Origin: a virus
Reading direction: 5' to 3' (one strand)
DNA: 43,349 bases
Virus record (IMG/VR): IMGVR_UViG_3300031999_000057
Location: 1-43,349 of that record
Shown: one piece after another, positions 259-33,404 of the stretch
Position numbering within the stretch: position 1 is the first letter of the stretch
Layout: every line of letters begins with the position of its first letter
Translations under genes and position numbers: made by a program
Notes under the pieces: model-generated
What the model was told of the DNA's origin: nothing
The model's database searches: none
What the model saw: only the letters and a program-made list of their open reading frames with translations

Positions 259-834
259 ATGAGTGCAGCTATTCCTATTATAACGGCAGTCTTTCTTCAA
301 GATCAATATGTTGGGAACCAATTATCTATCTCCGAAATATCCGAGAAATATGGAATATCATCTGACCGATTATATAAAGCAATGAAGAGACTGGACATCC
401 CCAGGAGAAATCGCGGCCAGGCCGGTGTTGTAGCCCATCTTCATGGGCGTTTGATTGCTCCCCAAGGCGGAAAGATTGCCAAGCAACGAGGGACACAAAA
501 TTATAAAACTGGGGATAAACATTGTCGTTGGAGGGGCGGGAGAAGAAAAACCGGAGAGGGATATATTTATGTCTATATGCCAAATCATCCATTTGCGAAA
601 GATGGCAAATATATGTTGGAACATAGACTGATTATGGAAAAGATCATCGGGAGATATTTGGAAAAAGATGAGATTGTTCACCATAAAAATGGAATAAAGG
701 ATGATAATCATCCGGGAAATTTGATTTTAATGAAAAAGATAAAGCACAATAAAGAAAACGGATATGCCGCAGCTTATCAAGATGGATTTTCGGCTGGTCA
801 ACAATCCGTTCATTCTTTCGTAAGTTATCATTAA
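259..834 (+). CDS. HNH homing endonuclease with N-terminal helix-turn-helix
   Basis: A 191-residue protein. Residues 23-45 form a helix-turn-helix of the type that follows SISEISEKYGIS. The C-terminal half is a classic phage HNH_3 nuclease: EHRLIMEK around 121-128, then VHHKNGIKDD at 140-149, followed by GNLIL. It should nick or cut DNA at a homing site and is probably a selfish element. Its first residues (MSAAIPI...) match the start of the very next gene at 845, although most codons differ by synonymous changes. The element therefore seems to sit between two copies of its target's 5' end. It has a strong ribosome site (GGAGG) and is separated from the next gene by AAGGAGG. Confidence 0.9.
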   Translation: MSAAIPIITAVFLQDQYVGNQLSISEISEKYGISSDRLYKAMKRLDIPRRNRGQAGVVAHLHGRLIAPQGGKIAKQRGTQNYKTGDKHCRWRGGRRKTGEGYIYVYMPNHPFAKDGKYMLEHRLIMEKIIGRYLEKDEIVHHKNGIKDDNHPGNLILMKKIKHNKENGYAAAYQDGFSAGQQSVHSFVSYH

Positions 835-844
835 GGAGGAAGTT

Positions 845-1198
845 ATGAGTGCAGCAATACCAATTGCGTCGGCTGTTTTACCGGCCTTGATTACAGCGTT
901 GGCCGGGAATAAAAAACCGACTGAATACACATCGGGGTTATCATCGCAAGATCAGTCGTTCCAGAACTGGATACGACAACAGATTCAGGGGCAGGCCGCG
1001 AAGGGGCAATCACCGAATACAATGAACGCTCAGTCGTTGCTTTACAACCGGTTCTTTGGTGGGATGCCGCAGAACATGGGGGGTCAACCACAGGGTATGC
1101 CGCAAATGCAGCGACCTCAGCAACCGCAACAGCAGAATTTTGCGGGGGCGTTACCCGGCCTTCTTGGACAATTTAATCAAGAACCATATCCCAGATGA
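845..1198 (+). CDS. small Q/G-rich virion-associated protein
   Basis: A 117-residue protein with a hydrophobic N-terminus (MSAAIPIASAVLPALITALAG) and a C-terminal half made largely of Gln, Gly, Met and Pro. This composition is common in podovirus internal or tail-associated proteins. No enzyme motif is visible. It starts after AAGGAGG and its stop overlaps the next start as ATGA. Its 5' end is the sequence echoed at the start of the upstream homing nuclease, so it is probably the gene that the nuclease invaded. Confidence 0.75.
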   Translation: MSAAIPIASAVLPALITALAGNKKPTEYTSGLSSQDQSFQNWIRQQIQGQAAKGQSPNTMNAQSLLYNRFFGGMPQNMGGQPQGMPQMQRPQQPQQQNFAGALPGLLGQFNQEPYPR

Positions 1199-1380
1199 TA
1201 GATCGGCTCGGAATGGGGCGTTGGTGGAATAACCCCGTCCAGAACAAAACTCAGACGGACGCGGAGCGGTTCCTGAAGGGGCCGTTTACACCATTGACAT
1301 CGGGATTCACCAAGTCCGCCGATGAATGGAACGCATTTAAAAAGAATTGGGAAGATAAATTTAAACTCCCCGAAATTTAG
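1195..1380 (+). CDS. small conserved virion-region protein, unknown
   Basis: A 61-residue charged protein rich in Trp and Lys near its ends, with no recognisable domain. It is coupled to the previous gene by an ATGA overlap and is followed after eight bases by the next start, with GGAGGGG between. Position and composition suggest a minor virion or assembly protein; function is not inferred further. Confidence 0.6.
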   Translation: MIDRLGMGRWWNNPVQNKTQTDAERFLKGPFTPLTSGFTKSADEWNAFKKNWEDKFKLPEI

Positions 1381-1388
1381 GAGGGGCC

Positions 1389-1727
1389 ATGATTGATTTT
1401 AGCAAGTTCAGTGATCCGACTGGTGGATTTTCATATCCGGGTGCCACGACCAGGACCGAGGATGCGGCATCATCGTATCGGAGCGGATCCCCTAGTGGGG
1501 GTGGTGCTGCCGGTGCGAACTCGTACGCGGGGGCATTGGGTGGGAATATCACTATGCCCGACGCCTGGACGAAGGCCAAGCAATACTGGGAGGCGATGAT
1601 GGGCGGGTCTAATCTCGCTGGGGGCGGGTTGTCCGGCGAGGCGATGACCAGACTCCGCACACCGACCGATGTTTCCGGGTTATGGGGGAAATACGAACCG
1701 CTCACGCGGCGGATGATTGATGAGTAA
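1389..1727 (+). CDS. virion protein, N-terminal part ending at an in-frame TAA
   Basis: A 112-residue frame rich in Gly, Ser and Ala. It ends at TAA (1725-1727) after MIDE, and the same frame continues directly into the next entry. The joined text across the stop reads MIDE-stop-QKNAMEQAGMGG, a smooth helix-like continuation. No ribosome site precedes the ATG at 1740. The two frames are best read as one gene of about 296 codons interrupted by one stop, as a real nonsense mutation, a readthrough site or a sequence error. The start at 1389 has GGAGGGG seven bases upstream. Confidence 0.65.
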   Translation: MIDFSKFSDPTGGFSYPGATTRTEDAASSYRSGSPSGGGAAGANSYAGALGGNITMPDAWTKAKQYWEAMMGGSNLAGGGLSGEAMTRLRTPTDVSGLWGKYEPLTRRMIDE

Positions 1728-1739
1728 CAAAAGAACGCC

Positions 1740-2279
1740 ATGGAACAAGCGGGGATGGGCGGTATGCGTCAGTCCACGGTAGCCTCGACTCAACTTGGCG
1801 ACATCGCTAATAAGTACTGGCAACAGCAGGCGGCCAATATTATGCAACAGGAGATAGCGGCCAAGGAAGCGGCGGCCGGGCGTGACCTATCGGCGGAACT
1901 CGGGAGCGGGCAGATGGGGACACAGGCGAGTATCGCCAATATGCAGGGTCGAATGGGCGCGGCCGAGAGTTTGTTTGGTGCGGGATCGGCAGAGAATCAG
2001 CTTGCCATGGGACTTATCTCGATGCTCGGTGGATTCGGTCAGCAACAGGAGAACCCGGCATGGATGCAATGGGCTATGCAAGCCTATCCGCAGGGGATGT
2101 CTGGTATGCCCCAGACATATCAGCCGTCGTTCTGGGAACAGATGGCAGGCAGTATCCCAGGATTGATGAATCTATTTAGTGGACAAGGCGGTGGGGGAAT
2201 GAATCCCGGTCAGGGAAGAAATACAAGTAGTTGGCAACAACCATCTTCGACTTATGGCAATGAAAGATATTGGGGGTAA
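1740..2279 (+). CDS. virion protein, C-terminal part after the in-frame stop
   Basis: A 179-residue frame in the same phase as 1389-1727. The N-terminal part is helical and Gln/Ala-rich (MEQAGMGGMRQSTVAST, then repeated QQ and AA), and the C-terminal part is Gly/Met/Gln-rich with many aromatic residues. This fits the internal or adaptor-type virion proteins found in this position. If the stop at 1725 is read through, residues 1-179 are simply the second half of one protein. Independent initiation at 1740 looks poor because no purine-rich site lies upstream. The frame ends TAATG over an alternative start of the next gene. Confidence 0.65.
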   Translation: MEQAGMGGMRQSTVASTQLGDIANKYWQQQAANIMQQEIAAKEAAAGRDLSAELGSGQMGTQASIANMQGRMGAAESLFGAGSAENQLAMGLISMLGGFGQQQENPAWMQWAMQAYPQGMSGMPQTYQPSFWEQMAGSIPGLMNLFSGQGGGGMNPGQGRNTSSWQQPSSTYGNERYWG

Positions 2280-2284
2280 TGACT

Positions 2285-2953
2285 ATGCCACAAAGATATA
2301 GTCGATACGGATATGGGCCAAGTGAAGAAGAACTCCAAAATTTAGGGGGGCCATTTTTTAACCCTTATTCCAAGCGTGGCGATGTCGGATACGCACTCCG
2401 TCAGGCCGTAAATATGCTCCTGGCGAAGAAACGGGAAGAACAGGACACGGCGAAAGAACGGGCCAAGACAGATTGGGAACAGAAGTTTAAAGAGGCACAA
2501 CTGGCATTGGAGGAAAGAAGGACTGCGGTTGCGGAAAGGCCAGATATTCAGAAACCACCTATTCCAGAAAAACAATTTGCTCAACCGGATTTGTTGGTTA
2601 TGGCCGAGAAACTTGTTGAATCCGGGATGTTCGACGATACCCCTCCCAATAAACGACTCGGAATGGCATTTAATTATATCCTCTCGGGCCAACATCCTTC
2701 CAGTCAAAGACAACCAGCAAAAACAACCGCTTCCCAAGTAACCGCGTTCCCAACTGGTGGAACCACACAATTGGCAATTCCGCAACAAGGCGCACCTGCG
2801 CCAGGAGTCATGCCCCCGATGTCCCCCCATGTTAGACCGAATCAATTATCGGCCACCATCGAAGGTGACAACGTAGTTTTCAACGGCAAGAAATACAAAA
2901 TATCGAAAGATGGGATTGTCGTTATAGAGGGTAAACCTTACGCGATACGCTAA
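2285..2953 (+). CDS. virion-region protein with charged coiled-coil segment, unknown
   Basis: A 222-residue protein when started at 2285. Another ATG lies at 2279, overlapping the previous stop as TAATG, but the run GGGGG at 2272-2276 is spaced better for 2285. Residues about 45-90 are highly charged and likely coiled coil (KKREEQDTAKERAKTDWEQK). The middle is Pro/Gln-rich, and the end looks like a small beta domain (NVVFNGKKYKISKDGIVVI). Its gene order resembles internal virion proteins of podoviruses. It overlaps the next start by one base. Confidence 0.7.
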   Translation: MPQRYSRYGYGPSEEELQNLGGPFFNPYSKRGDVGYALRQAVNMLLAKKREEQDTAKERAKTDWEQKFKEAQLALEERRTAVAERPDIQKPPIPEKQFAQPDLLVMAEKLVESGMFDDTPPNKRLGMAFNYILSGQHPSSQRQPAKTTASQVTAFPTGGTTQLAIPQQGAPAPGVMPPMSPHVRPNQLSATIEGDNVVFNGKKYKISKDGIVVIEGKPYAIR

Positions 2954-5097
2954 TGCCACAACAAATAACCCTTATCCCGCTTGATGAGGCGGTAGAAGAA
3001 AAGAAACGGAAACCCACGACTGGGGAACTGGTCAAGGGAGCATGGGCCAAGGCTATGCCGTTCGGCCTACCGATTTCCGAGACAATCAGTCATTTGGCAA
3101 CCGGGGGAGTTGGGGCCGTAGGCGGCCTAGTCGGATTCGGGGCAAAACTCTTGGCGGATTTAGTTCCAGGTGGCGAGAAACCGTCTTTCGTAAGAGCGCG
3201 GGAAACTATGGGTGGCGTATCTGAGGCATTGACATATAAACCACAGACTCCCGAAGCCCAGAAAATGACAAGGGTTGCGCTTGTCCCATTGGAATTAGCG
3301 GCCAAAGGAATCAAGGGTGGATCGGAATTAATAACCAGCGATCCAGAAGTCCAGGCCGGGATACAGACGGCGGGGGACTTGGGGCTTTTCATGCTCATGG
3401 GCAAAGCGGCCAAGGGATTTAAACAACCCGAGATCGGTGCAAAGTTCAAACCGGTTACGGAAGCACCAACACCTAAATTTGTCGAAGAGCCGATTAATCC
3501 GACATTTGAGAAATTTGGGACACTGTTCAAGGAATTCCGCAAGGGACAAAAAGAACAGGCCGTGATTTATTCCAAGGAACGCGGGGCAAGACTCGGAGAA
3601 GGATTAGAAGCCGCCGAAGGAAAAGTAGGGCAGGAATATTTTGATACCATTAAGTCCAAAATGGGCGGAAAAATAGAGCGGGTTCCGTTTAAGCATGACT
3701 TCACACCTGGACAGACGACTGAATTATATGATGGAGTAAAGGGTGCGGTATTCTTAACGAATTGGGAAAAACTCCAAGCCGCCCGTGCCTTGGATGCGGT
3801 ATTCAAAGAGGGTACGGTTCCCGCTCCGGCAGATACGGCGTTGCTGGCTAGGGCTTATGGAAAATCATTCGTTAAATCTATGCCACGCAATATCATCAGC
3901 GAGATAGCGAACATCCCACGTTCCATGATGGCTTCCGGCGACTTGTCATTTGGGCTTCGCCAGGGTATGCCGCTTGGCGCAGGGTATCCCAAGGAATTTG
4001 CAAGGGCCATGGCCGAACAAGTTAAATACTCCGGGAGTGAGGGCGTTTATCAAGGGGCCATGAAGGAAATCGCTCAACGTCCGACATATCAACTCATGCG
4101 CGGTGGTCCAGGTCGTCGTGTTGAATTGGCATTGACGGAGATGGGGCCGATGACGGGATTGCGAGAGGAGAAATACCTATCCCCGATTGCCGAGAAAATT
4201 CCCGGTATCGGGCCAATCATCCGGGCTTCTGGTCGGGCATATACGGGTGGACTAGATATATTAAGGGCTGATGTATTCGACAGTATATTCCATGATGCTG
4301 AAGCCGCTGGTTTTAATCCCGCTCAAAATCCAATGCTCCTAGATGCCATGTGTGATTTTATCAACAAGGCAAGCGGTCGTGGTTCGGCCAAACCATTGGC
4401 TAACTCCACTCAGCTTTTGAACGCGCTCTTCTTTTCTCCTCGCCTAGTTTTGTCTCGACTTCAAATGATCGGGAAGGCAGTTAATCTCCCATTGGAAAAG
4501 ATAATCCATCTGGCAAACCCAGATTGGTGGACACAGACGCCAAAGCCGGTAAGAATCGCAACGCTACGGACACTACTCGGATTCGCCGGGATGTTGACCA
4601 CTACCGCCGGACTTCTCAAGTTGGCGGGGGCAGAAGTATCCCTGGATGCCCGAAGTTCTGATTTTCTAAAGCCAAAATTTGGGAATACTCGCATAGATTT
4701 AGGGGCTGGATTCCTGCAATATATTAGGACATTCGTTCAACTTCTAACCGGTCAGGTTGTTAGCACCAGAACTGGAAAAATAACGGAAGTCGGTGAAGGA
4801 TATAAACCGCTTACACGATGGGACATTGCAGAGCGGATGGTGGAATACAAGACCGCACCAATTCCGAGTTTTGTCATAAATCTACTTCGAGGAAAGTCGG
4901 TATTCGGGGAGAAATTGAATATCCCGAAGGAAGTCCTGCAAAGACTTACGCCGATGGTTTGGCAGGACCTTTATGATATCGCCAAGGACGACCCCAAACT
5001 ATTGCCGCTTGGTGTTCTCGGGGTTTTCGGGGCAGGATTACAAACTTATGAGCCGAGTCCCAAAAAGTCTGGGAGTCTATATTTTTATACGAAATAA
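2953..5097 (+). CDS. large internal virion / polyvalent-type protein (714 residues)
   Basis: The largest gene of the left arm. The N-terminal 100 residues are Gly/Ala-rich with a likely membrane-active helix (GGVGAVGGLVGFGAKLLADL). The middle holds the segment ADVFDSIFHDAEAAG followed by FINKASGRG and LLNALFFSPRLVLSRLQ. This pattern resembles a domain seen in large phage polyvalent and internal virion proteins (LPD38-like; the family name is from memory). No peptidoglycan hydrolase motif was recognised. The position just before the lysis and terminase genes matches ejected internal proteins of T7-like phages, so a role in DNA ejection or transport across the cell envelope is likely but inferred. 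Confidence 0.7.
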   Translation: MPQQITLIPLDEAVEEKKRKPTTGELVKGAWAKAMPFGLPISETISHLATGGVGAVGGLVGFGAKLLADLVPGGEKPSFVRARETMGGVSEALTYKPQTPEAQKMTRVALVPLELAAKGIKGGSELITSDPEVQAGIQTAGDLGLFMLMGKAAKGFKQPEIGAKFKPVTEAPTPKFVEEPINPTFEKFGTLFKEFRKGQKEQAVIYSKERGARLGEGLEAAEGKVGQEYFDTIKSKMGGKIERVPFKHDFTPGQTTELYDGVKGAVFLTNWEKLQAARALDAVFKEGTVPAPADTALLARAYGKSFVKSMPRNIISEIANIPRSMMASGDLSFGLRQGMPLGAGYPKEFARAMAEQVKYSGSEGVYQGAMKEIAQRPTYQLMRGGPGRRVELALTEMGPMTGLREEKYLSPIAEKIPGIGPIIRASGRAYTGGLDILRADVFDSIFHDAEAAGFNPAQNPMLLDAMCDFINKASGRGSAKPLANSTQLLNALFFSPRLVLSRLQMIGKAVNLPLEKIIHLANPDWWTQTPKPVRIATLRTLLGFAGMLTTTAGLLKLAGAEVSLDARSSDFLKPKFGNTRIDLGAGFLQYIRTFVQLLTGQVVSTRTGKITEVGEGYKPLTRWDIAERMVEYKTAPIPSFVINLLRGKSVFGEKLNIPKEVLQRLTPMVWQDLYDIAKDDPKLLPLGVLGVFGAGLQTYEPSPKKSGSLYFYTK

Positions 5098-6139: not shown

Positions 6140-6444
6140 GTAAACCGAAATCTGAAGAGAAGGAACGCATAGCCGCGCTTACCGAACTCCGCAAGGAAAA
6201 ATGGAGGGCGGTGTTCAAGGCCAACCTGAGTGTCCTAAAGGGAATCCGGGACGACCCAGACGCCAAGGACAAGGACAGGATCGAGGCGGCCCGTGTAATG
6301 GGAAGAATGATGGATGTTCTCTCGCCGGAAAAAGTGACACAGACCCCTGGCGGGAAGTCACCAGACAAATGGTGGGAGGAAGATTTAAGTGAATCCGACA
6401 GAAACAGTATCGACACCACTATCGACAGCGTTAAGCCAAATTAG
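6136..6444 (+). CDS. probable terminase small subunit
   Basis: A 102-residue, highly charged, mostly helical protein (residues 1-70), including a segment DRIEAARVMGRMMD and an acidic, Trp-containing C-terminus (DKWWEEDLSES). The sequence is not conserved enough to name by motif. Length, charge and position directly upstream of and overlapping the large terminase gene (56 bases) support a DNA-recognition small subunit. It would bind the packaging site and load the large subunit. Confidence 0.6.
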   Translation: MSKPKSEEKERIAALTELRKEKWRAVFKANLSVLKGIRDDPDAKDKDRIEAARVMGRMMDVLSPEKVTQTPGGKSPDKWWEEDLSESDRNSIDTTIDSVKPN

Positions 6445-8077
6445 GAATTGGTCGATACGCCGGATTCGCGGACTCTGCGATAAATCTTTCTTCTGGTTTG
6501 TTCGTATAGTGGGCGGACCGTCGAGTGGACGGGACATCTGCCCGGAGCTTTTCATCCCCCTTTGTAACTTCGCGCAGGACAAGTCTATTCCGCGCAAATT
6601 CATCGCCATGCCCCGCGATTGGTTGAAGTCTACGGTTTTTACTAAATGGTTTGTGATATGGCTCTATCTCCAGAATCAAGAACTCCGCCAATTGATTGTC
6701 TCGGAGAATGAACGCATTGCCGCAAATTTCTTGCATTGGATAGAAAAAACCCTTCTAAATAACAAAAAACTCCGTACTCTTTATCCCGACAAATTGGGAC
6801 AGATTAACAACACCTGGGTTCAGAAGAACAGATGGAGTGGGACGGCCTGCGACTTGCCGCGCAAAGAGATTTATTCAGAACCATCGATTGTTGCCATCGG
6901 GGTAGGTGGGGCCAGCCAATCCTATCATTTCGATTATATCCATCCAGACGACCTTGTGGGTCAGGCGGCCATGGAGTCGCCAGTTATCCTCGGCGGCGTA
7001 TGTCAATGGTTCGACAATATCGAAGAACTCATGGTTGAGCCGGATGTCACTAAGCCTAACCCGAGTGGGCTATTAGGGGTCGGGACGCATTGGGGGCCAG
7101 GGGATTTCTTCTGTGAGATACAGTTAAAATATCTCAACAAATACCAATGGAAAATAGTCCCCTGTCAGAAAGACCCGGATTATATCGACACCTTCCCAGA
7201 CGGGACGCCGGGGATGGCCTGGACACAAAACGAAAAATCGGATCGGGCTGAAAGTAACTGGCCGGAATATAAGAATACCGAATACTATAGAAAAAAACAG
7301 GCCGAAGACGAAATCTTGTACTGGTCACAACACATGAACGACCCGCACCGGGCGTCGGGATTGACCAAGATCGACGGTGCGTGGTTCAGATTCTTCCATT
7401 TCGAGGATAGGAACGGCATCAAATTTGTCGTCTGTGATGATCCCGTTACCGACGAGAACAAGAAGAAAGGCTACCCGGAGTTTCGGTTATCGTCTATTCG
7501 GTTATTCGCAATGATCGACCCCGGCGGGTTTGCCGAGACGAAGATGATTAAGCGCGGTTCGAATAACGCCATTGTCATAGCCGGTCAAGCCCCGGATTCG
7601 ATCAAGAAGTTTGTCGTGTGGGCATGGGCGGGGAAAGAGAAAGACCCGGATAAGTTCATGGACATCATATTCAACGCTCATAAGGAATGGAATCCGGTAC
7701 TGTGGAGGATAGAAACGTTCGGCGGCCAGGACTATATCATGCGGCATATCATGTTGGAACGTAAGAAACGCGGATCGACGCTGAGGATTGCACCGCTTCC
7801 GAAAGATGTGACGAAGGATATAAAGGACAATGAAATCCAGGCACTCATCCCCCCGATAGCCAACGGAGAATATATCTTCCATAAACCGACACAGGGGATG
7901 CTGTTGTCGGAGTTAAAGAATTATCCCGGCGGGTTGACGAATGATCTTGCGGATTGCCTAGGAAAGTTGAATAAATATTGCGGGTTCACGCGAACGAAAA
8001 AGAAAGAATCGACGAATCGGAACACGATTGATTTTCGGAATATACTGGAAGGAAAAAACGAGTGGACTGGATACTAA
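6389..8077 (+). CDS. terL: terminase large subunit (packaging ATPase-nuclease)
   Basis: A 562-residue protein from a GTG start, preceded by GGGAGGA. The ATPase has a deviant Walker A, PRDWLKST, at residues 75-82 and a Walker B, YIHPDD, at about 183-188. The RNase H-like nuclease begins at LFAMIDPGG (Asp377), continues through a strand ending VLWRIETFGG, and closes with NDLADCLGKL near residue 535, which carries the last acidic residues. It pumps DNA into the prohead through the portal and cuts the concatemer. Length and motif order are normal for the family. It converges with the minus operon, and the two stop codons overlap. Confidence 0.95.
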   Translation: MNPTETVSTPLSTALSQIRNWSIRRIRGLCDKSFFWFVRIVGGPSSGRDICPELFIPLCNFAQDKSIPRKFIAMPRDWLKSTVFTKWFVIWLYLQNQELRQLIVSENERIAANFLHWIEKTLLNNKKLRTLYPDKLGQINNTWVQKNRWSGTACDLPRKEIYSEPSIVAIGVGGASQSYHFDYIHPDDLVGQAAMESPVILGGVCQWFDNIEELMVEPDVTKPNPSGLLGVGTHWGPGDFFCEIQLKYLNKYQWKIVPCQKDPDYIDTFPDGTPGMAWTQNEKSDRAESNWPEYKNTEYYRKKQAEDEILYWSQHMNDPHRASGLTKIDGAWFRFFHFEDRNGIKFVVCDDPVTDENKKKGYPEFRLSSIRLFAMIDPGGFAETKMIKRGSNNAIVIAGQAPDSIKKFVVWAWAGKEKDPDKFMDIIFNAHKEWNPVLWRIETFGGQDYIMRHIMLERKKRGSTLRIAPLPKDVTKDIKDNEIQALIPPIANGEYIFHKPTQGMLLSELKNYPGGLTNDLADCLGKLNKYCGFTRTKKKESTNRNTIDFRNILEGKNEWTGY

Positions 8078-11219: not shown

Positions 11220-11421
11220 TCCAATGCTCCTCTTGTGTTATCCAAATATTATCATATTGTCCATGGCATTTTAATATTGCTGCCGCTAGTGTTTTCAGCG
11301 AATGAATAGGCGACAGTCCATCATTGTTATCGTCGCCGGTTGATTCTATAACATAATAAGTCCCTCTGTTTATCCACGCCTTCGGCGGCCGACCCGGTTT
11401 TCCCGACTGCCATTTTCTCAT
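11194..11421 (-). CDS. short protein resembling the N-terminus of phage beta-helix proteins
   Basis: A 75-residue protein that begins with a basic stretch (KWQSGKPGRPPKAW) and then has YYVIESTGDDNNDGLSP, followed by SLKTLAAAI. This is the signature that opens many right-handed beta-helix/pectate-lyase-like appendage proteins, as in the gene at 37027 of this window (FFVDGTSGTDGFDGLKP). Here it stands alone, without the beta-helix, inside the early operon. It may be a broken tail-fibre fragment or a small protein that kept the capping motif. It overlaps the phosphoesterase start by four bases. Confidence 0.55.
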   Translation of the reverse strand: MRKWQSGKPGRPPKAWINRGTYYVIESTGDDNNDGLSPIHSLKTLAAAILKCHGQYDNIWITQEEHWNDKQTNSR

Positions 11422-12212
11422 GGTGTAATAATCTCATATATCTGTTTTCGGTTATCATATGTCCTATTAGCACCGCCACCGCTATAGGTGGCACCGACAA
11501 ATGTTATGTTTATATGTTCAACAACGGCCGGCTTTTTTGCTTTTTCCTCTGCATAACTACCGTCATATTCTAGGGCGGAACCAATAATATAATCGTATCC
11601 GGTCTTTTTAATTATCTTATTTCGCGCCGGTTCATACCATGTAACCGGTATCCTGGAAGTAATGTGGAAATGTCCACTGAATATGGCATCGGCGGTAGGG
11701 CAGATGAGCCGTAGTTGATCCGCCCGATTGATCTTTCCTCCCGCCGTATATCCCCCCCCATAATTGTGGTGGAAATAACAGTTGAATCCGTATGGTGTCC
11801 GGCATGACGGCAATTCAAATACGGCATAACAGGAGAACCCGGCATAGCGAATCCCAAGCCGTGTGGCGATGTGGGTTTCGGGGATTATCCCGGCCACCCG
11901 CATTGTCCTCTGCTCATGGTTCCCGGCGATGAGGAACAACCCCTTGTCTTTTATCGGGGTAAGGATATCTACGATGTAGTCCATTTGATCCTTCGGCGGG
12001 GCGGTTTGGGTATAGACATCGGACTTGCTGCCGACTATCGCGTTTTCCATGAGGTCACCAAGTCCAATCCAATATCCGTTTCTGTCATTCTTAACTTCGT
12101 TAATGACCTTCCCAATAAATTCCTCGTTGCACTGACTACTTCCGTAGTGCCAATCTCCAAGAAGATATAAGGTAAACGATTTCCCGCTAAATTGCTTTTT
12201 GAAAAATTCCAT
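11418..12212 (-). CDS. calcineurin-like metallophosphoesterase
   Basis: A 264-residue protein with the five metal-binding motifs of the family in order: GDWH (19-22), GDLMEN (52-57), GNHE (97-100), HH (148-149) and GHFH (180-183). It hydrolyses a phosphoester; in phages such enzymes act on nucleotides, DNA ends or RNA 2',3'-cyclic phosphates, and the substrate here is unknown. It starts as TAATG on the stop of the upstream endonuclease. A diverged copy of its first 12 codons lies on the far side of that endonuclease gene, so the endonuclease appears to have inserted at this gene's start. Confidence 0.9.
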   Translation of the reverse strand: MEFFKKQFSGKSFTLYLLGDWHYGSSQCNEEFIGKVINEVKNDRNGYWIGLGDLMENAIVGSKSDVYTQTAPPKDQMDYIVDILTPIKDKGLFLIAGNHEQRTMRVAGIIPETHIATRLGIRYAGFSCYAVFELPSCRTPYGFNCYFHHNYGGGYTAGGKINRADQLRLICPTADAIFSGHFHITSRIPVTWYEPARNKIIKKTGYDYIIGSALEYDGSYAEEKAKKPAVVEHINITFVGATYSGGGANRTYDNRKQIYEIITP

Positions 12213-12655
12213 TAATTACCTCCCAGATGTTGATCGAGATAATGTACCATGGCTTTAGATACCGCGAGGTTATCCCCCATGTATCCGAGGGCGAGATTAC
12301 AATTCATGCATAGAATTCCCCTAATGTTTCCCGCCTTGTGATCGTGGTCTACTATTGGCCCGTGTGACCCCCAAGAAGATGACCCGCAAATTGCACAGAC
12401 AGACCCTTGCCCGATCAGCATTGACTCAAACGCCTCTGGTGTTAATCCGTATTTTCTCTTTAACTGATAAGCCCTAATTTCTTTGCGATGTGTTTTAGTG
12501 CGAAGCCTCCCCCTGGCCCTCTCCTTTTCTATGTGATCCTTGCGATATTTCCTCATTGCGGCGAGTCTTTTTTCTCTATCTCGGGAATGTCGGTTACGAT
12601 CATTTGCCCTTTGTTTTTCTTGATCTTTATAGGCCATAAGCATATCTCGCAACAT
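12212..12655 (-). CDS. endonuclease VII-like HNH homing nuclease
   Basis: A 147-residue protein. An extremely basic helical N-terminus (to about residue 65) is followed by the recombination endonuclease VII domain: YGLTPEAFESML, CAIC (87-90), DHDH (103-106), CMNC (116-119). Free-standing copies of this domain act as homing or DNA-entry nucleases. The start is uncertain: 12655 and 12637 are both possible and neither has a good ribosome site. Translation may be carried in from the 26-codon frame at 12627-12707 that overlaps it. Its end reconstitutes a TAATG junction with the phosphoesterase. Confidence 0.85.
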   Translation of the reverse strand: MLRDMLMAYKDQEKQRANDRNRHSRDREKRLAAMRKYRKDHIEKERARGRLRTKTHRKEIRAYQLKRKYGLTPEAFESMLIGQGSVCAICGSSSWGSHGPIVDHDHKAGNIRGILCMNCNLALGYMGDNLAVSKAMVHYLDQHLGGN

Positions 12656-13462: not shown

Positions 13463-13651
13463 TTAATCCCCACTCGAAACAAAATCCCAAATGACAATTA
13501 ACAAAAGAAGCGTCCCGATAATTGCCAACGCACAAATTGAGAATGGAAGATTTTCATTCGCCTTAAATTTAGAAATCTCGAAAAAGAATCCGGTAAGGCA
13601 AGAAGCCCCCATTGCCGAAAGTGCGATTTTCAAAAAGTTAGATTTAATCAT
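13463..13651 (-). CDS. small protein with two membrane helices
   Basis: A 62-residue protein with two hydrophobic segments (LKIALSAMGASCLTGFFF and SICALAIIGTLLLLIVIWDF) joined by a short basic/acidic loop. It overlaps the end of the helicase gene by four bases. Small membrane proteins inside early operons often act in superinfection exclusion or host membrane takeover; that role is only inferred. Confidence 0.65.
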   Translation of the reverse strand: MIKSNFLKIALSAMGASCLTGFFFEISKFKANENLPFSICALAIIGTLLLLIVIWDFVSSGD

Positions 13652-15807
13652 TTATTATCTCCTATATTTTTATACTTATGCACTTTGGAATATTTGGTCT
13701 TATCTGCGGCAATATCATCGGCTTCCGGTGTGCGCCAACCAAGTCCGTCTACTATGAATTTCCAGCCGCCTATCAACTTAAAGGTTTGTATCTTTCCATT
13801 CGGGTTATTCTCGCCGTCCGTCCAGTTCTTCGCCTTGACGATCTTGATAACACCGGGATTGATTGCGAGATACAATCTTGCCTTGTCCATGGTGGCCTGT
13901 CCGCCGCGTCCGAAGTCGGTCTGTTCGTTCTTCTGTATGGCGATGACCGCAACTCCCTTGTTGAGCTTGTTCCATATCCGGCTGATGTATGCCTTGACCT
14001 TGTATTCTTCGCCGGTTAAGCTCTCCAGGTAGTCTATGCAATTCACCGCATCCGGCCTTATAACGTCCTCGAAGTGTTCCGTTCTATCCCAGACATTGAT
14101 CTTCCACTCCTCGATTTTGATATCCTGGAATTGTGTGAGTCGCAACCGCGTCTCGCTGTCGCCCATCTCGCTCGAAAAATAATGCACCTCGAATTTGTCC
14201 ATGTTCATCTTTGCAAAGTTGAGCAAAAAGGCGGTATTGTGTGTAACGATAAAATCCTTTGCTATATATAAGCCCGATTCGGCAGAGGTCGATATACAAA
14301 TTGTTTCTTGAATACCAGCATTTTTTATTTCACATAAACTTTTGTGATCTGATTTTTTTTCTATTTTATATCTTCTGGCTTTTCTGGTCAATCTAAATGG
14401 ACAAAAATCCTTTGCTTTTAATCTAATTCTATAAGACAATCTTCCCGTTTTATATTGTCCCAAATAGCGATAATGCGTTAGTCTTGAGGTAACCGTGACT
14501 TTTATTCCCAATGATCTTGCCAGGAATACAAAATCTTCACACAATTTTTCCGATACAGTATTAAAAGATATTTGACCAGACTCAGAAATGTCTCCATCTG
14601 AGTCTAATAGCCCTGCCAAGAGGTCTTTTCTGATAGGAATACAATTTAATAAATATTCCTTGGGAATAAATTTCTCCCATGAACGACAACCGACAAGTCC
14701 GAATTTTTCGATTTGTCTTTTCAGGCCACGGAATGAAACGGTAAAACATCCAGTTCTTTTGTCTTGATATATGGAATTCTCGCCATAATAATTTCTGCAA
14801 TAATCTATTATTTCTTCATCTGCTGCCGAAATTGATATTGTTGTTTTACTTAACGATCCGTCTCCTAATAAAAGGCCGAGAAAATAAGGATCAAGACTGC
14901 TCGATATTTCCTTCTCTTCAAAATCTATCGCTTCATTTTTGGGCAATCTTAATCTAAGATGAGTTTTTATTTTTCCGAATCCACCTACCTCTGCCAATAT
15001 TTTATAGGCTGGAAGAACTTCATATTTTCCATATTTTAAGGAAGGATTTCCCCGGCCGGTTTTTTTCCAACATCTATTATATGCGGGTAAAACATTCCAC
15101 AAATGCTCAAAATCACAAATGAGGGAAGTCCTATCATTAAACACAAATTCAAAACATTGTTGTAGACCCCGCTTATATACTCCGGTAATTTTTTCTTGTT
15201 TCCCTTGTTCGGAAAAAATCATATCACCGACTTTTAATTTTTCTATTTTTGTCCATCCAGTTGGAGTTAATATTTTTGTTCCCATTGGATGACCCTTTCC
15301 CTCATTACTTTTTCCGGCCAGGACGACAATATTCTTCTCAAAAATATTGACCACGTTCTCCAATTCAAACGGCCACTTGAGAAATACGGGGTCGATGGGC
15401 GCATTGAGGAAATCGACCTTGACACATTCATCGACGACCTTCCGATACTCCCCGCTGTGTCGGCTGCCGGACTCGATGATCTTCTCTTTCTTGAGCCGCG
15501 CCAATGCGACCCTGACCGAATTCTTCGCCTCCTTGTCGCCCTGTCCGATAGCAAGGTCAAAGTAGATATCGGAGATTCGGAATGTTCCTTCACTTTGTGC
15601 GATCCATTCCCCGACTTCCTTGGTGATGTTCTGGTCTTTACTGGTTGCGACGGCGACGGATTCACGGACGATCTCCCCCACCCGTTCAAGCGGCAGATCA
15701 TATTCTTTGGCCAGGATATCGGCCATGGCGAGGATTTTCTCTGCCGGGATTCGTCCCCGAGCAAGCGCGAAACAGGATTCTCTGAGTTCATTTTCCTTCT
15801 TGGTCAT
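13648..15807 (-). CDS. RecA/DnaB-type ATPase (probable replicative helicase) with intein in the P-loop
   Basis: A 719-residue precursor. The N-extein (1-171) contains a winged-helix-like segment (SVRVALARLKKEKIIESGS) and ends at the P-loop VVLAGKSNEGK. Residues 172-524 are an intein. The C-extein (525-719) starts TAFLLNF, so splicing restores AGKSNEGKT, a complete Walker A. After it come FSSEMGDSETRLRL (DnaB-like), a Walker B-like NCIDYLE, and GQATMDKARLYLAINPG near a sensor strand. The spliced 366-residue product fits a phage RecA-fold replicative helicase or recombination ATPase. It begins on GGTTT-rich DNA with an internal promoter candidate upstream. Confidence 0.85.
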   Translation of the reverse strand: MTKKENELRESCFALARGRIPAEKILAMADILAKEYDLPLERVGEIVRESVAVATSKDQNITKEVGEWIAQSEGTFRISDIYFDLAIGQGDKEAKNSVRVALARLKKEKIIESGSRHSGEYRKVVDECVKVDFLNAPIDPVFLKWPFELENVVNIFEKNIVVLAGKSNEGKGHPMGTKILTPTGWTKIEKLKVGDMIFSEQGKQEKITGVYKRGLQQCFEFVFNDRTSLICDFEHLWNVLPAYNRCWKKTGRGNPSLKYGKYEVLPAYKILAEVGGFGKIKTHLRLRLPKNEAIDFEEKEISSSLDPYFLGLLLGDGSLSKTTISISAADEEIIDYCRNYYGENSIYQDKRTGCFTVSFRGLKRQIEKFGLVGCRSWEKFIPKEYLLNCIPIRKDLLAGLLDSDGDISESGQISFNTVSEKLCEDFVFLARSLGIKVTVTSRLTHYRYLGQYKTGRLSYRIRLKAKDFCPFRLTRKARRYKIEKKSDHKSLCEIKNAGIQETICISTSAESGLYIAKDFIVTHNTAFLLNFAKMNMDKFEVHYFSSEMGDSETRLRLTQFQDIKIEEWKINVWDRTEHFEDVIRPDAVNCIDYLESLTGEEYKVKAYISRIWNKLNKGVAVIAIQKNEQTDFGRGGQATMDKARLYLAINPGVIKIVKAKNWTDGENNPNGKIQTFKLIGGWKFIVDGLGWRTPEADDIAADKTKYSKVHKYKNIGDNK
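14236..15294 (-). mobile_element. LAGLIDADG intein, probable class 3 (WCT) type, inside the helicase P-loop
   Basis: A 353-residue insertion (precursor residues 172-524). Block A reads GHPMGTKIL, so position 1 is Gly instead of Cys or Ser. Block B is CDFEHLWNV, with His235 and Trp237 two apart. The block F region is ETICIST with Cys504. The end is FIVTHN followed by extein Thr. Trp, Cys and Thr at these places are the WCT marks of class 3 inteins, known from phage DnaB-type proteins. A LAGLIDADG homing endonuclease sits in the middle (GLLLGDGS at 311-318, LAGLLDSDG at 397-405). The DNA is visibly richer in A and T than the exteins, which suggests transfer. Confidence 0.85.
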
Positions 15808-16483
15808 GGTTTAGATTTTTCTCGAATAACACTAGAATGGAATCATATAAGAAAATCATACATTTGTCAAGATACAGGTCGATAAACATCCGGCGGTCTT
15901 CCTGGAACTCGCCATGGTGTTTCCGGCATAGCGGGATTGCCCAATGATCTTTTGCCCCCGCACCCTTTGTCAACGGGAAGTGGTGCGTATCGACAACATC
16001 CCCGACTTGCGGCGGGTTGCAGAGAATACACCCATGCCGCGTAAGGTATTCCAGGTACTTTTTGAGTACGTTCATACCCCTTTTTGACTCCATTACGGCG
16101 TCAACGACCGATTCCATGTGTTCCTTATGCGGCGGCAGTTCCTTCGATTTGTGCGGCAGATATTTCTGTTTTATATCGTTCCATGAGATTTCTTTGGAAA
16201 ACGGGGCGGCGGAGAGGTCGGGATAAGACTTACTAAATTCCACGCAGTAGTAAAGGGTACGTTCCGAGCATCGCAAATCGACCGCGAGTTGTTCTATCAG
16301 GTTAAAAGTCGATATACCCTGTCGCTCGGCAGCGTCCGAAACAATTATCCCTAGCTCATGCCGCCCCTCAATTAGACTCCATCGCATAGCGAATCCAGTC
16401 TCGACTAGGCACGACTTGGCATGGTCTATCAGATAGCCGTACCACTCGGCTCCGGTATCAATCAGTTTCGCCGGAAGATTCAT
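15788..16483 (-). CDS. replication-region protein with C-terminal HNH domain (DUF968/Ref-like)
   Basis: A 231-residue protein started at 16483, which overlaps the previous stop as ATGA. The N-terminal 140 residues are helical with a likely DNA-binding segment (AVDLRCSERTLYYCVEFSKS). The C-terminal part has CILCNPP, VDTHHFPLTKGAGAKDHWA, and PLCRKHHGEF, the zinc-containing HNH nuclease pattern of phage DUF968/Ref-type recombination nucleases. It overlaps the helicase start by 20 bases. Expected role: DNA nicking or replication organisation beside the helicase. Confidence 0.7.
   Translation of the reverse strand: MNLPAKLIDTGAEWYGYLIDHAKSCLVETGFAMRWSLIEGRHELGIIVSDAAERQGISTFNLIEQLAVDLRCSERTLYYCVEFSKSYPDLSAAPFSKEISWNDIKQKYLPHKSKELPPHKEHMESVVDAVMESKRGMNVLKKYLEYLTRHGCILCNPPQVGDVVDTHHFPLTKGAGAKDHWAIPLCRKHHGEFQEDRRMFIDLYLDKCMIFLYDSILVLFEKNLNHDQEGK
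15842..15870 (-). promoter_or_regulatory. internal promoter candidate before the helicase gene
   Basis: TTGACA (15870-15865), spacer of 17, TATGAT (15847-15842), inside the 3' end of the upstream gene and about 35 bases before the helicase start. It matches consensus well but lies in coding DNA. Confidence 0.45.
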
Positions 16484-16947
16484 TTCACTTTTTCCCAATC
16501 CCAATCATAGGCACTTTGTGCGTTTTCCTTAATCAGCCGCGAAATCTCGTTATATCCCATGTCGGTCTTCTTCTCTCCGTATTTCAGCATCAACTCCGTC
16601 GCCTCGATTCCACGTTGATACGACGATTGTGCCGTAATAAGCACATTCTTATCCGGCGCAACCAACGGCGGCTCGGGTGGTTCTGATCCCGTGCCTGAAT
16701 TATCAATGGTTGGCCCATGCACTTTTGTGCAATTATCAAGGTTATAGAATTGCCCGTTCTGGGTATATGCCACTTTTGCCGCATCCCCAGTTTTTACCGA
16801 CTCTACACCTTTCCCTATTTCCGGCTTAAATGTTCCGGCCCATATCTCAACGCCGTTATCATCCCCAAATTTGATTGACCACATTTTCTTGCCCGTCGTC
16901 TTTGTCGGGGCAATACGAACCGCTAAAATCGTCCGTTCAAGTTCCAT
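16480..16947 (-). CDS. possible OB-fold single-stranded DNA-binding protein
   Basis: A 155-residue protein. The first 75 residues have an alternating beta pattern (TILAVRIAPTKTTGKKMWSI, then VEIWAGTFK, AKVAYTQNGQFYNL) that fits an OB fold. A Pro/Glu-rich linker (about 85-98) leads to a helical C-terminal region. Position next to helicase and nuclease genes supports an SSB- or recombination-mediator-like role. No signature motif proves it. Confidence 0.45.
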   Translation of the reverse strand: MELERTILAVRIAPTKTTGKKMWSIKFGDDNGVEIWAGTFKPEIGKGVESVKTGDAAKVAYTQNGQFYNLDNCTKVHGPTIDNSGTGSEPPEPPLVAPDKNVLITAQSSYQRGIEATELMLKYGEKKTDMGYNEISRLIKENAQSAYDWDWEKVK

Positions 16948-22556: not shown

Positions 22557-23087
22557 CTACCTCCCCAAATGCAGATTTTTATGACAAGAAGAACAAAGCC
22601 ATTCTATTTTGAGCGGCCTGAAATAATCGGGATGATGAGCCTGAACTTTCCTATTTGCGCCACAGTTTGAACAGGTAGTAGGCCGAATAATTTTTTTCTT
22701 TTGATTTACGTTAATGAGTCTGTTAATTACATTTCGGGCGTGTTTAATAATTGGGTCTATTTTCTTATATGGTAAAGGATTTCTAATTTTCCACAATTTC
22801 GTTGCACGCTGTCTTTTTTCTATATTTTCTGGCCGATGATTATATTCTTTTACGTGCTCTTTATTTTTTAAATCCCAGTCTAATTTTAATTTTTTGCGGC
22901 TTTCCTTTATCTCTGGCCGAGAATAATATTCTTTTCTTTTGGCTTTTATTTCTGGCCTGGAATTATATTTCTTCATGCAGGCAGCCACTATTTCTAAGTG
23001 ATTCTCGCGCCAAGCTTTTTGATATGCACAAATCTTCTCCCTATTTTTCTGATAATATATTTTTCTTAGTTCTTTAGATTTCCACAT
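22557..23087 (-). CDS. HNH homing endonuclease with repeated basic N-terminal motif
   Basis: A 176-residue very basic protein. Residues 1-100 contain several copies of a short motif around YYSRPEIK or YNHRPEN, likely DNA-contacting repeats. The nuclease has CSNCG (139-143), VQAHHPDY (149-154), LKIEWLCSSCHKNLH (159-173). This is a common free-standing phage homing nuclease type. Its DNA is much richer in A and T than both neighbours. It overlaps the RusA gene end by 14 bases. Confidence 0.85.
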   Translation of the reverse strand: MWKSKELRKIYYQKNREKICAYQKAWRENHLEIVAACMKKYNSRPEIKAKRKEYYSRPEIKESRKKLKLDWDLKNKEHVKEYNHRPENIEKRQRATKLWKIRNPLPYKKIDPIIKHARNVINRLINVNQKKKIIRPTTCSNCGANRKVQAHHPDYFRPLKIEWLCSSCHKNLHLGR

Positions 23088-31155: not shown

Positions 31156-31401
31156 ATGTTCTTCATTCTCGGAGTTCTCGCCGGACTTCTGCGGGAATTT
31201 TTGGTTATCTGCTGGTTTCAGTCTATCCAGCAACGGTTGGCCTTGCGGGGTTCGGGCATTTCCCTGGTGATCGGTTTGCTGGACTTTGGGGTAATCGCAA
31301 AATTGGCCTTAGATAGGAATATCTTGATGATGATTGGATATATCATCGGAGAAACAGTCGGTACTTTTGTAGGGATACAATGGTCGATAAAGAAAAAATA
31401 G
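31156..31401 (+). CDS. small integral membrane protein, 81 residues
   Basis: Several hydrophobic helices (MFFILGVLAGLLREFLVICW, GISLVIGLLDFGVIAKLAL, ILMMIGYIIGETVGTFVGI), similar to the small DUF5698-type membrane proteins; the name is a loose resemblance. AGGA is placed six bases before the start. Its end overlaps the portal start by 22 bases. Confidence 0.6.
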   Translation: MFFILGVLAGLLREFLVICWFQSIQQRLALRGSGISLVIGLLDFGVIAKLALDRNILMMIGYIIGETVGTFVGIQWSIKKK

Positions 31402-33404
31402 AAAGCAAAGAAGATGTTCGCGGGTATCGCGGCGGACTCAAAGTTGACCTTGATCGAGTTATGGAATCGAAACGAACACTCCGTGAGGAATTGTCGGAAT
31501 ATCTGGTCGATATTCTTGACACGGAGATAAAGAACCAGGAAGAGTATATCGGAAAAATCTCCGATTGGCAGAAATTATACAGTTGTAAGAAGGAAAAGAA
31601 AACATTTCCGTTCGTCGGATGTGCAAACGTCAAGAACCCGATTGCCCATTCTGGGGTGGATACGATTTTTGTTAGGGCCGCAGATAATCTTTTCAACAAG
31701 CAAAAGGTGTGGTTGGTGGGGGCCAAGAAGCCCGGTTATGAGGAAATTGCAAAGAACATCGAAGACGGCCTGGATTGGTTCCAACTCAATGTAATGAAAT
31801 TTCGCGAGAAACTTTTACCTGCGTTATTGCAGTCAATCAAGATCGGGACTGGGATCGGAGAGTTGGTTTATGAAGAGAAACGGAAACCCGTCTATCGGTA
31901 TGCAACCAAGGACGAAGAAAAAGACAAGAAGATCGTCAAATACACACTTCCAGGGACGAGATCGAAGGCGGTAAAGTCTATACGTTCAGTATATACCGGC
32001 CCGAATTTCTATCCAATTCCGAGAGAGGACTGGCTTCAGTCAAGCGATTCCCTGGACCTACAAGAATGTGCGGCTTGTGGATATAAATACAAACTTCGTC
32101 CGCAAAAGATTTTGACGAAAGTTCGGCAGAACTTATTCGATGAGGATGCCGTTGATAAGTTGATGTCGAAGGACGGACTCGGGTTTGTCATTCCAGAGGC
32201 TCCGGCAGACGCGACAAAAGATAATCGGGCGGCATTGGAAGGAAAGAAAATCCAGATTGTAGCCCGGAATAAACAGGCAACATTTTGGGAACTGTGGGCA
32301 AAATATGATGTTGACGAGGACGGTGAAGAAGACAGTATCGTCGTCACGATCAATAGGGAAACGGGGATCATCGTGGCCGCTATTTATAATCCGATATTCG
32401 GGAACTTCCGCCCGTTCGATAAGTTCATTTTTTACCCAGTTGAATATTCCATGGACGGGGAAGGGATTTGCCAGATTCTTGAGTCGATCTCGAATGAGTT
32501 CGATACTATCCATAATCAGAAACTTGACAGGGTCACGCAGATAAACAGTCCAATTGGATTTATCCAGCAGGGAAGCGGACTAGAGGGCCTTGCGGGGAAA
32601 CCGTTACAGCCCGGAATGATCCACATTTGCGATGTTGATCCGAATGTCGCGTTCAAGGAATATAACTTCAGCAATACCACGGTCAGTTCATTTCAAGAAG
32701 AAGATCGGCTTGTCGCCATGGGCGACCGCGCTATCGGTGTCGGGCCTATTTTCTACGGCCAATCGACCGCAGAACGCCCGGTTGCCAAAGAAACCATGGC
32801 CGTTATCGAAGAGACAAACAAGAAGTTCAAATACGGTCAGGACAATATCCGGGCGTCAGTTCAAGAATTGGGATATAAACTGATGGAAATGCTGGCACAG
32901 TATCAACCGACATTCAAATATTACGTGAAGGACAAGATGGGGATCGAGCAGGAGCGGACGGTGGATTTCCCCACCGAGAATATCCGGGACGTTCTTGAGG
33001 TGCGGTTGGTAACGTCGAGCGAGATGATGAACCAACTTGAGCGGCGGCAGACAAACCTGGAGCTTTATCAGATAATCAAGGATTTTGCGACGAGTTCCGG
33101 GAGCATGGCCCAGGTTCTTTCCAATCCGCAAGTCCCGAGCGGCATGAAAGAAATAATTCTTAGGGCTAACGATATCGGGGTTAAGGTTCTCACGAAAATA
33201 CTTGATGATTATCCAACCGTGACCGATTCAAAAGAGATGGTATTGGATTTAAGGACGGCTACGGATACGGATAAATTAGTCTTGGCATCGCCGGATAAGA
33301 TGGCCGAGATGCAACAAGGGGCCGGGGGGCAGCAACCACCGGGCCAAGGAATGCCACCGGAAGGCGGATTACCGCCGCAAGGAGGAGAATTTGGCGGAAT
33401 TTGA
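31380..33404 (+). CDS. portal protein
   Basis: A 674-residue protein, the size range of P22/crAss-type podovirus portals. Strong signals are NVKNPIAHSGVDTIFVRA near 85-102, GIGELVYEEKRKPV in the N-terminal half, FRPFDKFIFYPVEYSMDG and SISNEFDTIHNQKLDRVTQ in the stem, and a Gly/Pro/Gln-rich C-terminus. It forms the dodecameric ring through which DNA enters and leaves. Position before scaffold and capsid genes is usual. A CAACGYKY patch near residue 230 may bind metal. Confidence 0.9.
   Translation: MVDKEKIESKEDVRGYRGGLKVDLDRVMESKRTLREELSEYLVDILDTEIKNQEEYIGKISDWQKLYSCKKEKKTFPFVGCANVKNPIAHSGVDTIFVRAADNLFNKQKVWLVGAKKPGYEEIAKNIEDGLDWFQLNVMKFREKLLPALLQSIKIGTGIGELVYEEKRKPVYRYATKDEEKDKKIVKYTLPGTRSKAVKSIRSVYTGPNFYPIPREDWLQSSDSLDLQECAACGYKYKLRPQKILTKVRQNLFDEDAVDKLMSKDGLGFVIPEAPADATKDNRAALEGKKIQIVARNKQATFWELWAKYDVDEDGEEDSIVVTINRETGIIVAAIYNPIFGNFRPFDKFIFYPVEYSMDGEGICQILESISNEFDTIHNQKLDRVTQINSPIGFIQQGSGLEGLAGKPLQPGMIHICDVDPNVAFKEYNFSNTTVSSFQEEDRLVAMGDRAIGVGPIFYGQSTAERPVAKETMAVIEETNKKFKYGQDNIRASVQELGYKLMEMLAQYQPTFKYYVKDKMGIEQERTVDFPTENIRDVLEVRLVTSSEMMNQLERRQTNLELYQIIKDFATSSGSMAQVLSNPQVPSGMKEIILRANDIGVKVLTKILDDYPTVTDSKEMVLDLRTATDTDKLVLASPDKMAEMQQGAGGQQPPGQGMPPEGGLPPQGGEFGGI

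Follow-up and report, generated by a model that had tools for sequence, protein, structure and literature searches.

What kind of element interrupts the Walker A motif of a helicase gene in an uncultivated phage, and which class of intein does it represent if its first residue is glycine? The stretch of DNA analysed here (hereafter the window; 43,349 nucleotides, positions 1 to 43,349 of IMG/VR record IMGVR_UViG_3300031999_000057) had been given a preliminary description from its letters, which proposed a class 3 intein at this locus. Class 3 inteins are defined by the lack of a nucleophile at position 1 together with Trp at B:12, Cys at F:4, and Thr at G:5 (the WCT set), and their +1 residue is Ser or Thr in all known cases except one (PMC5222942; PMC7664689). 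The features of the locus are as follows, with residues counted both within the intein and within the precursor protein.

13648..15807, minus: precursor of the DnaB-like (RecA-fold) helicase with its intein, 719 aa (366 aa once spliced)
15295..15807, minus: N-extein, 171 aa, whose C-terminal ...AGKSNEGK is the first part of Walker A
14236..15294, minus: predicted class 3 intein, 353 aa, Gly1 to Asn353 (precursor residues 172-524)
15292..15294, minus: intein residue 1, Gly, without a Cys/Ser/Thr nucleophile
15103..15105, minus: block B:10 His, intein His64, protein His235 (invariant in 76/76)
15097..15099, minus: block B:12 Trp, intein Trp66, protein Trp237, the W of WCT (invariant in 76/76)
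14857..14880, minus: first LAGLIDADG motif, LGLLLGDG, intein Asp145 kept
14593..14619, minus: second LAGLIDADG motif, LAGLLDSDG, Asp231 and Asp233 kept
14407..14667, minus: stretch of the LAGLIDADG homing endonuclease domain covered by the Pfam Hom_end models (PF05204, E 4e-13; PF14528, E 2e-10)
14296..14298, minus: block F:4 Cys, intein Cys333, protein Cys504, the C of WCT and predicted first nucleophile (invariant in 76/76)
14236..14244, minus: block G Thr351-His352-Asn353, Thr351 being the T of WCT (G:5)
13648..14235, minus: C-extein, 195 aa and stop, whose +1 Thr completes Walker A (GKSNEGK-T)

The precursor frame (13648..15807, minus strand) is open over all 719 aa, with no stop or frameshift. 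The intein (N-terminal GHPMGT, C-terminal VTHN) lies between the flanks ...VVLAGKSNEGK and TAFLLNFA..., that is, between the Lys and the Thr of Walker A (AGKSNEGK|TAFLL). Helicase relatives from a Methanosarcina virus, from prokaryote assemblies, and from contigs of IMG/VR were recovered when the protein or the joined extein served as the query. In 28/28 of the relatives examined the site is empty at the identical bond, and the P-loop is whole and ends GK[TS]. The joined 366-aa extein aligned with these relatives in one piece, gapless across the junction, at 32-44% identity, a comparison that fixes the two splice junctions. A wrong junction call that would hide a nucleophile at position 1 was considered and rejected, as the relatives stop at GK and restart at T/S with zero gap. 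The preliminary description had placed the intein at 14236..15294 and held that its excision would restore Walker A; our re-derivation gave the same coordinates and 353 aa, and the exact empty site in 28 relatives confirms both junctions. The 366-residue product that it mentioned is the spliced helicase (719 - 353), not the intein.

The identity of the host protein becomes apparent once the exteins are joined. The joined extein scored 27.6 bits against Pfam DnaB_C (cut-off 27) and also matched PHROG 243 (DnaB-like helicases), in agreement with the earlier view that the host is a phage helicase, and the conserved helicase motifs are retained. The unspliced protein gave only the Hint and endonuclease matches in Pfam, plus one spurious match. 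The extein resembles the Prim-Pol/helicase of the Methanosarcina virus MetMV (37% identity over 353 columns, E 6e-62), which is intein-free and carries an unbroken GESNAGKS at the insertion site; MetMV has an N-terminal Prim-Pol domain, whereas the helicase ORF in the window is without it. The gene upstream of the helicase (15788..16504, minus) matches DUF968. Downstream lies a gene for an Endonuclease VII-like protein (12212..12655, minus; PF02945, E 5e-19), followed by a metallophosphatase/repair exonuclease gene (11418..12212).

With regard to the class of the intein, the NCBIfam models intein_Nterm and intein_Cterm did not match the precursor protein, and class was therefore examined via alignment and structure; the Pfam Hint match in the precursor was below threshold. 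Residue columns were compared across the window intein and 75 distinct viral homologues found by scanning (76 sequences). His at B:10, Trp at B:12, and Cys at F:4 were each invariant in 76/76, as was the terminal Asn, while G:5 was Thr in 73/76 (Ser in 3) and G:6 was His in 75/76. The +1 residue was Thr in 60 of the 75 homologues and Ser in the other 15; in the window it is Thr. Judging from the sequences compared, Gly at position 1 is not odd: it occurs in 7/66 of the P-loop class 3 homologues, among them L015 and L026, which are close relatives, and also in the intein of Erythrobacter phage vB_EliS-L02 from the phage collection. Three of the homologues (L055, L057, L081) carry WCT-type inteins with an SHN or SKN end and Ser at G:5 (L081 also with Lys at G:6), and these ends are natural variants of the class 3 signature.

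The same columns could be read against inteins of known class. Reference sequences were checked against the PDB (gp41-1 via its engineered copy), with BAKA and Drazdys as phage relatives. Cys333 of the window falls in the same column as the F:4 Cys of the class 3 Mch DnaB1 and Msm DnaB1 inteins, with Trp66 at B:12 and Thr351 at G:5, and the block residues also align with those of BAKA TerL1-b and of a cluster C mycobacteriophage intein. Gly1, His235/Trp237, Cys504, Thr522, and the THN end all stand where the preliminary description had put them, and for Cys504, which it had assigned to F:4, alignment with the 75 homologues and Mch/Msm DnaB1 gives no other residue for that position. Thus, the window intein has no Cys/Ser/Thr at position 1, Trp at B:12, Cys at F:4, Thr at G:5 with His-Asn, and Thr at +1, as in class 3. 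Chance can be excluded because 75 homologues keep the same residues in the same columns and the site is empty in 28/28 relatives. Since a WCT set grafted onto a class 1 intein gave no splicing (PMC7664689), the motif by itself is no proof of activity. From the sequence comparison, the insert in the Walker A motif of this phage DnaB-like helicase is very probably a full-length class 3 intein that includes a LAGLIDADG endonuclease, and splicing is predicted.

Structure prediction is in line with this reading. The AlphaFold2 model (input alignment of 58 rows) had a mean pLDDT of 95.2 and a pTM of 0.93 and showed a Hint domain and a LAGLIDADG endonuclease. Over its whole length the best PDB match was the intein endonuclease PI-SceI; together with PF05204 and PF14528, both above cut-off, this fold match upholds the LAGLIDADG domain that had been noticed earlier. 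The splicing part superposed on the class 3 Mch DnaB1 and Msm DnaB1 structures mostly at 1.1-1.4 A over ~69 columns, and gp41-1 structures were also among its best PDB matches. The best viral structure matches included terminases, helicases, and proteins named for the DOD-type homing endonuclease.

The preliminary description had also called for a tree, and here the outcome was mixed. We used 107 splicing-domain columns, from which position 1 and the three WCT columns had been removed. The window intein fell among the class 3 rows, with a 99/99 split from the GyrA, SspDnaB, RecA, PolC, and KlbA inteins, and L015 was its sister (support 100/98); L015 was again the nearest in a tree of full-length inteins. 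However, an AU test on the 107 columns did not reject a grouping of the window with all class 1/2 rows, gp41-1 included (p 0.09). The class 1 gp41-1 intein itself falls on the class 3 side, so that the tree alone cannot define class and the residues do. Given the position of gp41-1 and the AU result, our class call therefore leans on the residues and close relatives over the deep branch.

We considered three other readings of the insert. A position 1 without a nucleophile is also found in KlbA inteins, and a class 2 (KlbA-type) intein would account for it. The class 2 reference Mja KlbA, however, carries Asp at F:4, lacks Trp at B:12, and ends in Ser-Asn, where the window has Cys, Trp, and Thr-His-Asn, and KlbA lies far from the window in the tree. 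The known class 2 inteins are KlbA orthologues that use Cys+1 (PMC4031507), whereas the window has Thr at +1 and a DnaB-like host instead of KlbA. A class 2 assignment is thus extremely improbable. The insert could alternatively be a decayed intein that no longer splices, as in Arth_1007 (PMC3196547), leaving the helicase dead; its AT-rich, foreign-looking composition would agree with this, and splicing is a prediction. Arth_1007 has lost both Cys F:4 and His B:10 (PMC3196547). In the window, by contrast, the intein retains all catalytic residues and both LAGLIDADG aspartates, the reading frame is uninterrupted, and the conserved extein motifs are kept, and we regard decay as very unlikely.

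It might also be argued that the gene encodes a helicase with a permanently fused homing endonuclease domain and no intein, as the LAGLIDADG domain is the strongest family match of the precursor. Yet Walker A is broken by the insert at the Lys-Thr bond, the endonuclease is embedded in a full Hint fold that has blocks A, B, F, and G, and the P-loop of the relatives is unbroken; a permanent fusion has next to no probability on this evidence.

For a class 3 intein, the order of splicing steps is taken from the literature (PMC5222942; PMC4031507). In the window, Cys333 (F:4), aided by His64 and Thr351 and with Trp66 packed nearby, would attack the Lys-Gly1 bond and form a block F branched thioester. 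The N-extein would then be transferred to the +1 Thr, cyclisation of Asn353 would release the 353-aa intein, and an acyl shift would give the 366-aa helicase, whose GKSNEGKT P-loop would be intact. Since the Lys and Thr of Walker A are kept apart by the insert, the unspliced precursor should be inactive as an ATPase.

The endonuclease would cut intein-free helicase alleles, into which the intein would then be copied. Two LAGLIDADG motifs with acidic residues are present in the window intein, as in LAGLIDADG (DOD) endonucleases, and Asp occurs at intein position 145 in 72/76 and at 233 in 76/76 of the sequences compared. The BAKA TerL1-b intein, which splices and cuts its empty allele (PMC5050341), shows GHLW, TRCI, and THN as its WCT set and can be aligned to the window intein. 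By analogy with homologues, we infer splicing, its step order, and DNA cleavage by the window intein; for cutting of the intein-free allele, the models are the BAKA and Bethlehem TerL inteins.

The composition of the locus also bears on mobility. The intein has a GC of 0.343 and a GC3 of 0.249, the lowest GC3 among the coding segments measured in the window, against a GC3 of 0.637 and 0.633 in the exteins, which substantiates the AT-rich DNA noted earlier. Since the splicing and endonuclease parts are AT-rich to a similar degree, the whole element, beyond the endonuclease alone, looks foreign. The low GC3 fits a foreign, mobile element; of the earlier proposal of a mobile and maybe recent arrival, the first part gains from this composition, while "recent" is a reading of composition only. 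Two other genes in the window are AT-rich: an HNH_3 endonuclease gene (259..834, plus; PF13392, PHROG 20891, GC3 0.33, AT-rich for the window), which is probably a free-standing mobile gene, and an endonuclease-like gene (22557..23087, minus; PHROG 2340, E 6e-18, GC 0.343, GC3 0.322, near the intein composition), which is likely another mobile gene.

Related inteins were found at the P-loops of unrelated proteins (host kinds judged from sequence), namely an SF2-type helicase (L015), an SNF2-type helicase (L026), a RecA-like protein (L013), and a terminase (L019). This distribution fits intein transfer between non-homologous P-loop genes. The intein of L015 (IMG/VR 3300027917_000024) is the closest found, with 43% identity over the full length, and shares with the window the Gly-His start, ETICIS...AKDFIVTHN, and the GK|T site; it differs in host, with its SF2-type helicase set against the DnaB-like helicase of the window.

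Among described systems, the MP-Be DnaB, MP-Catera Gp206, and BAKA TerL1-b inteins share with the window a position 1 without a nucleophile, the WCT set, and a LAGLIDADG endonuclease. BAKA TerL1-b, like the window intein, sits in a P-loop (~30% identity). The window intein differs from these three in its host, a DnaB-like helicase of an uncultivated phage, and in its Gly-His-Pro start. The splicing fold and WCT residues are common to the Mch and Msm DnaB1 inteins (PDB 6rix, 6bs8), but these are mini-inteins without an endonuclease in mycobacterial DnaB, whereas the window intein has one. Matches to the window intein occurred in 416/50,697 phage records, and 568/600 of the pattern-matched stretches retained from a scan of viral contigs encode a relative. 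Many of the public phage relatives lie in genes annotated as terminase, DarB-like antirestriction, RNA ligase, HNH endonuclease, or hypothetical protein, and the names shown for those relatives (hits H1-H60) mention no intein. One PhoH-annotated gene (529..3351 of MK557849.1, Caudovirales GX15bay) contains an intein of the WCT type (NHRW, AVCI, THN) whose insertion site lies outside a P-loop (RAHLIGGS upstream, TNFIVV downstream); its host protein may be portal-like. Among the papers searched, none surveyed viral metagenomes for class 3 inteins.

As to the phage itself, terminase large subunit and portal matches (6389..8077 and 31380..33404, both plus) mark the window as the genome of a tailed phage or a fragment of one; ten records with a related intein or helicase gave no match to the window terminase. 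Helicase relatives occur in Deltaproteobacteria, Nitrospirae, Chloroflexi, Planctomycetota, and archaeal assemblies. Since some of them come from a Methanosarcina virus and from assemblies of Methanoperedens and Euryarchaeota, the phage might infect an archaeon, and its class 3 intein would then belong to an archaeal virus; we consider this improbable. To our knowledge, the described class 3 inteins are from phages and bacteria.

The window intein adds a member to a kind that has been described well and is widespread among phages, and both the observation and its earlier interpretation hold. It opens no new mechanism. Common intein models stay below threshold on it, and phage class 3 inteins can thus escape annotation. 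What the locus offers is a clean class 3 example with an exact empty site and a sister intein in an unrelated helicase, the latter of which supports movement between non-homologous P-loop genes of phages.
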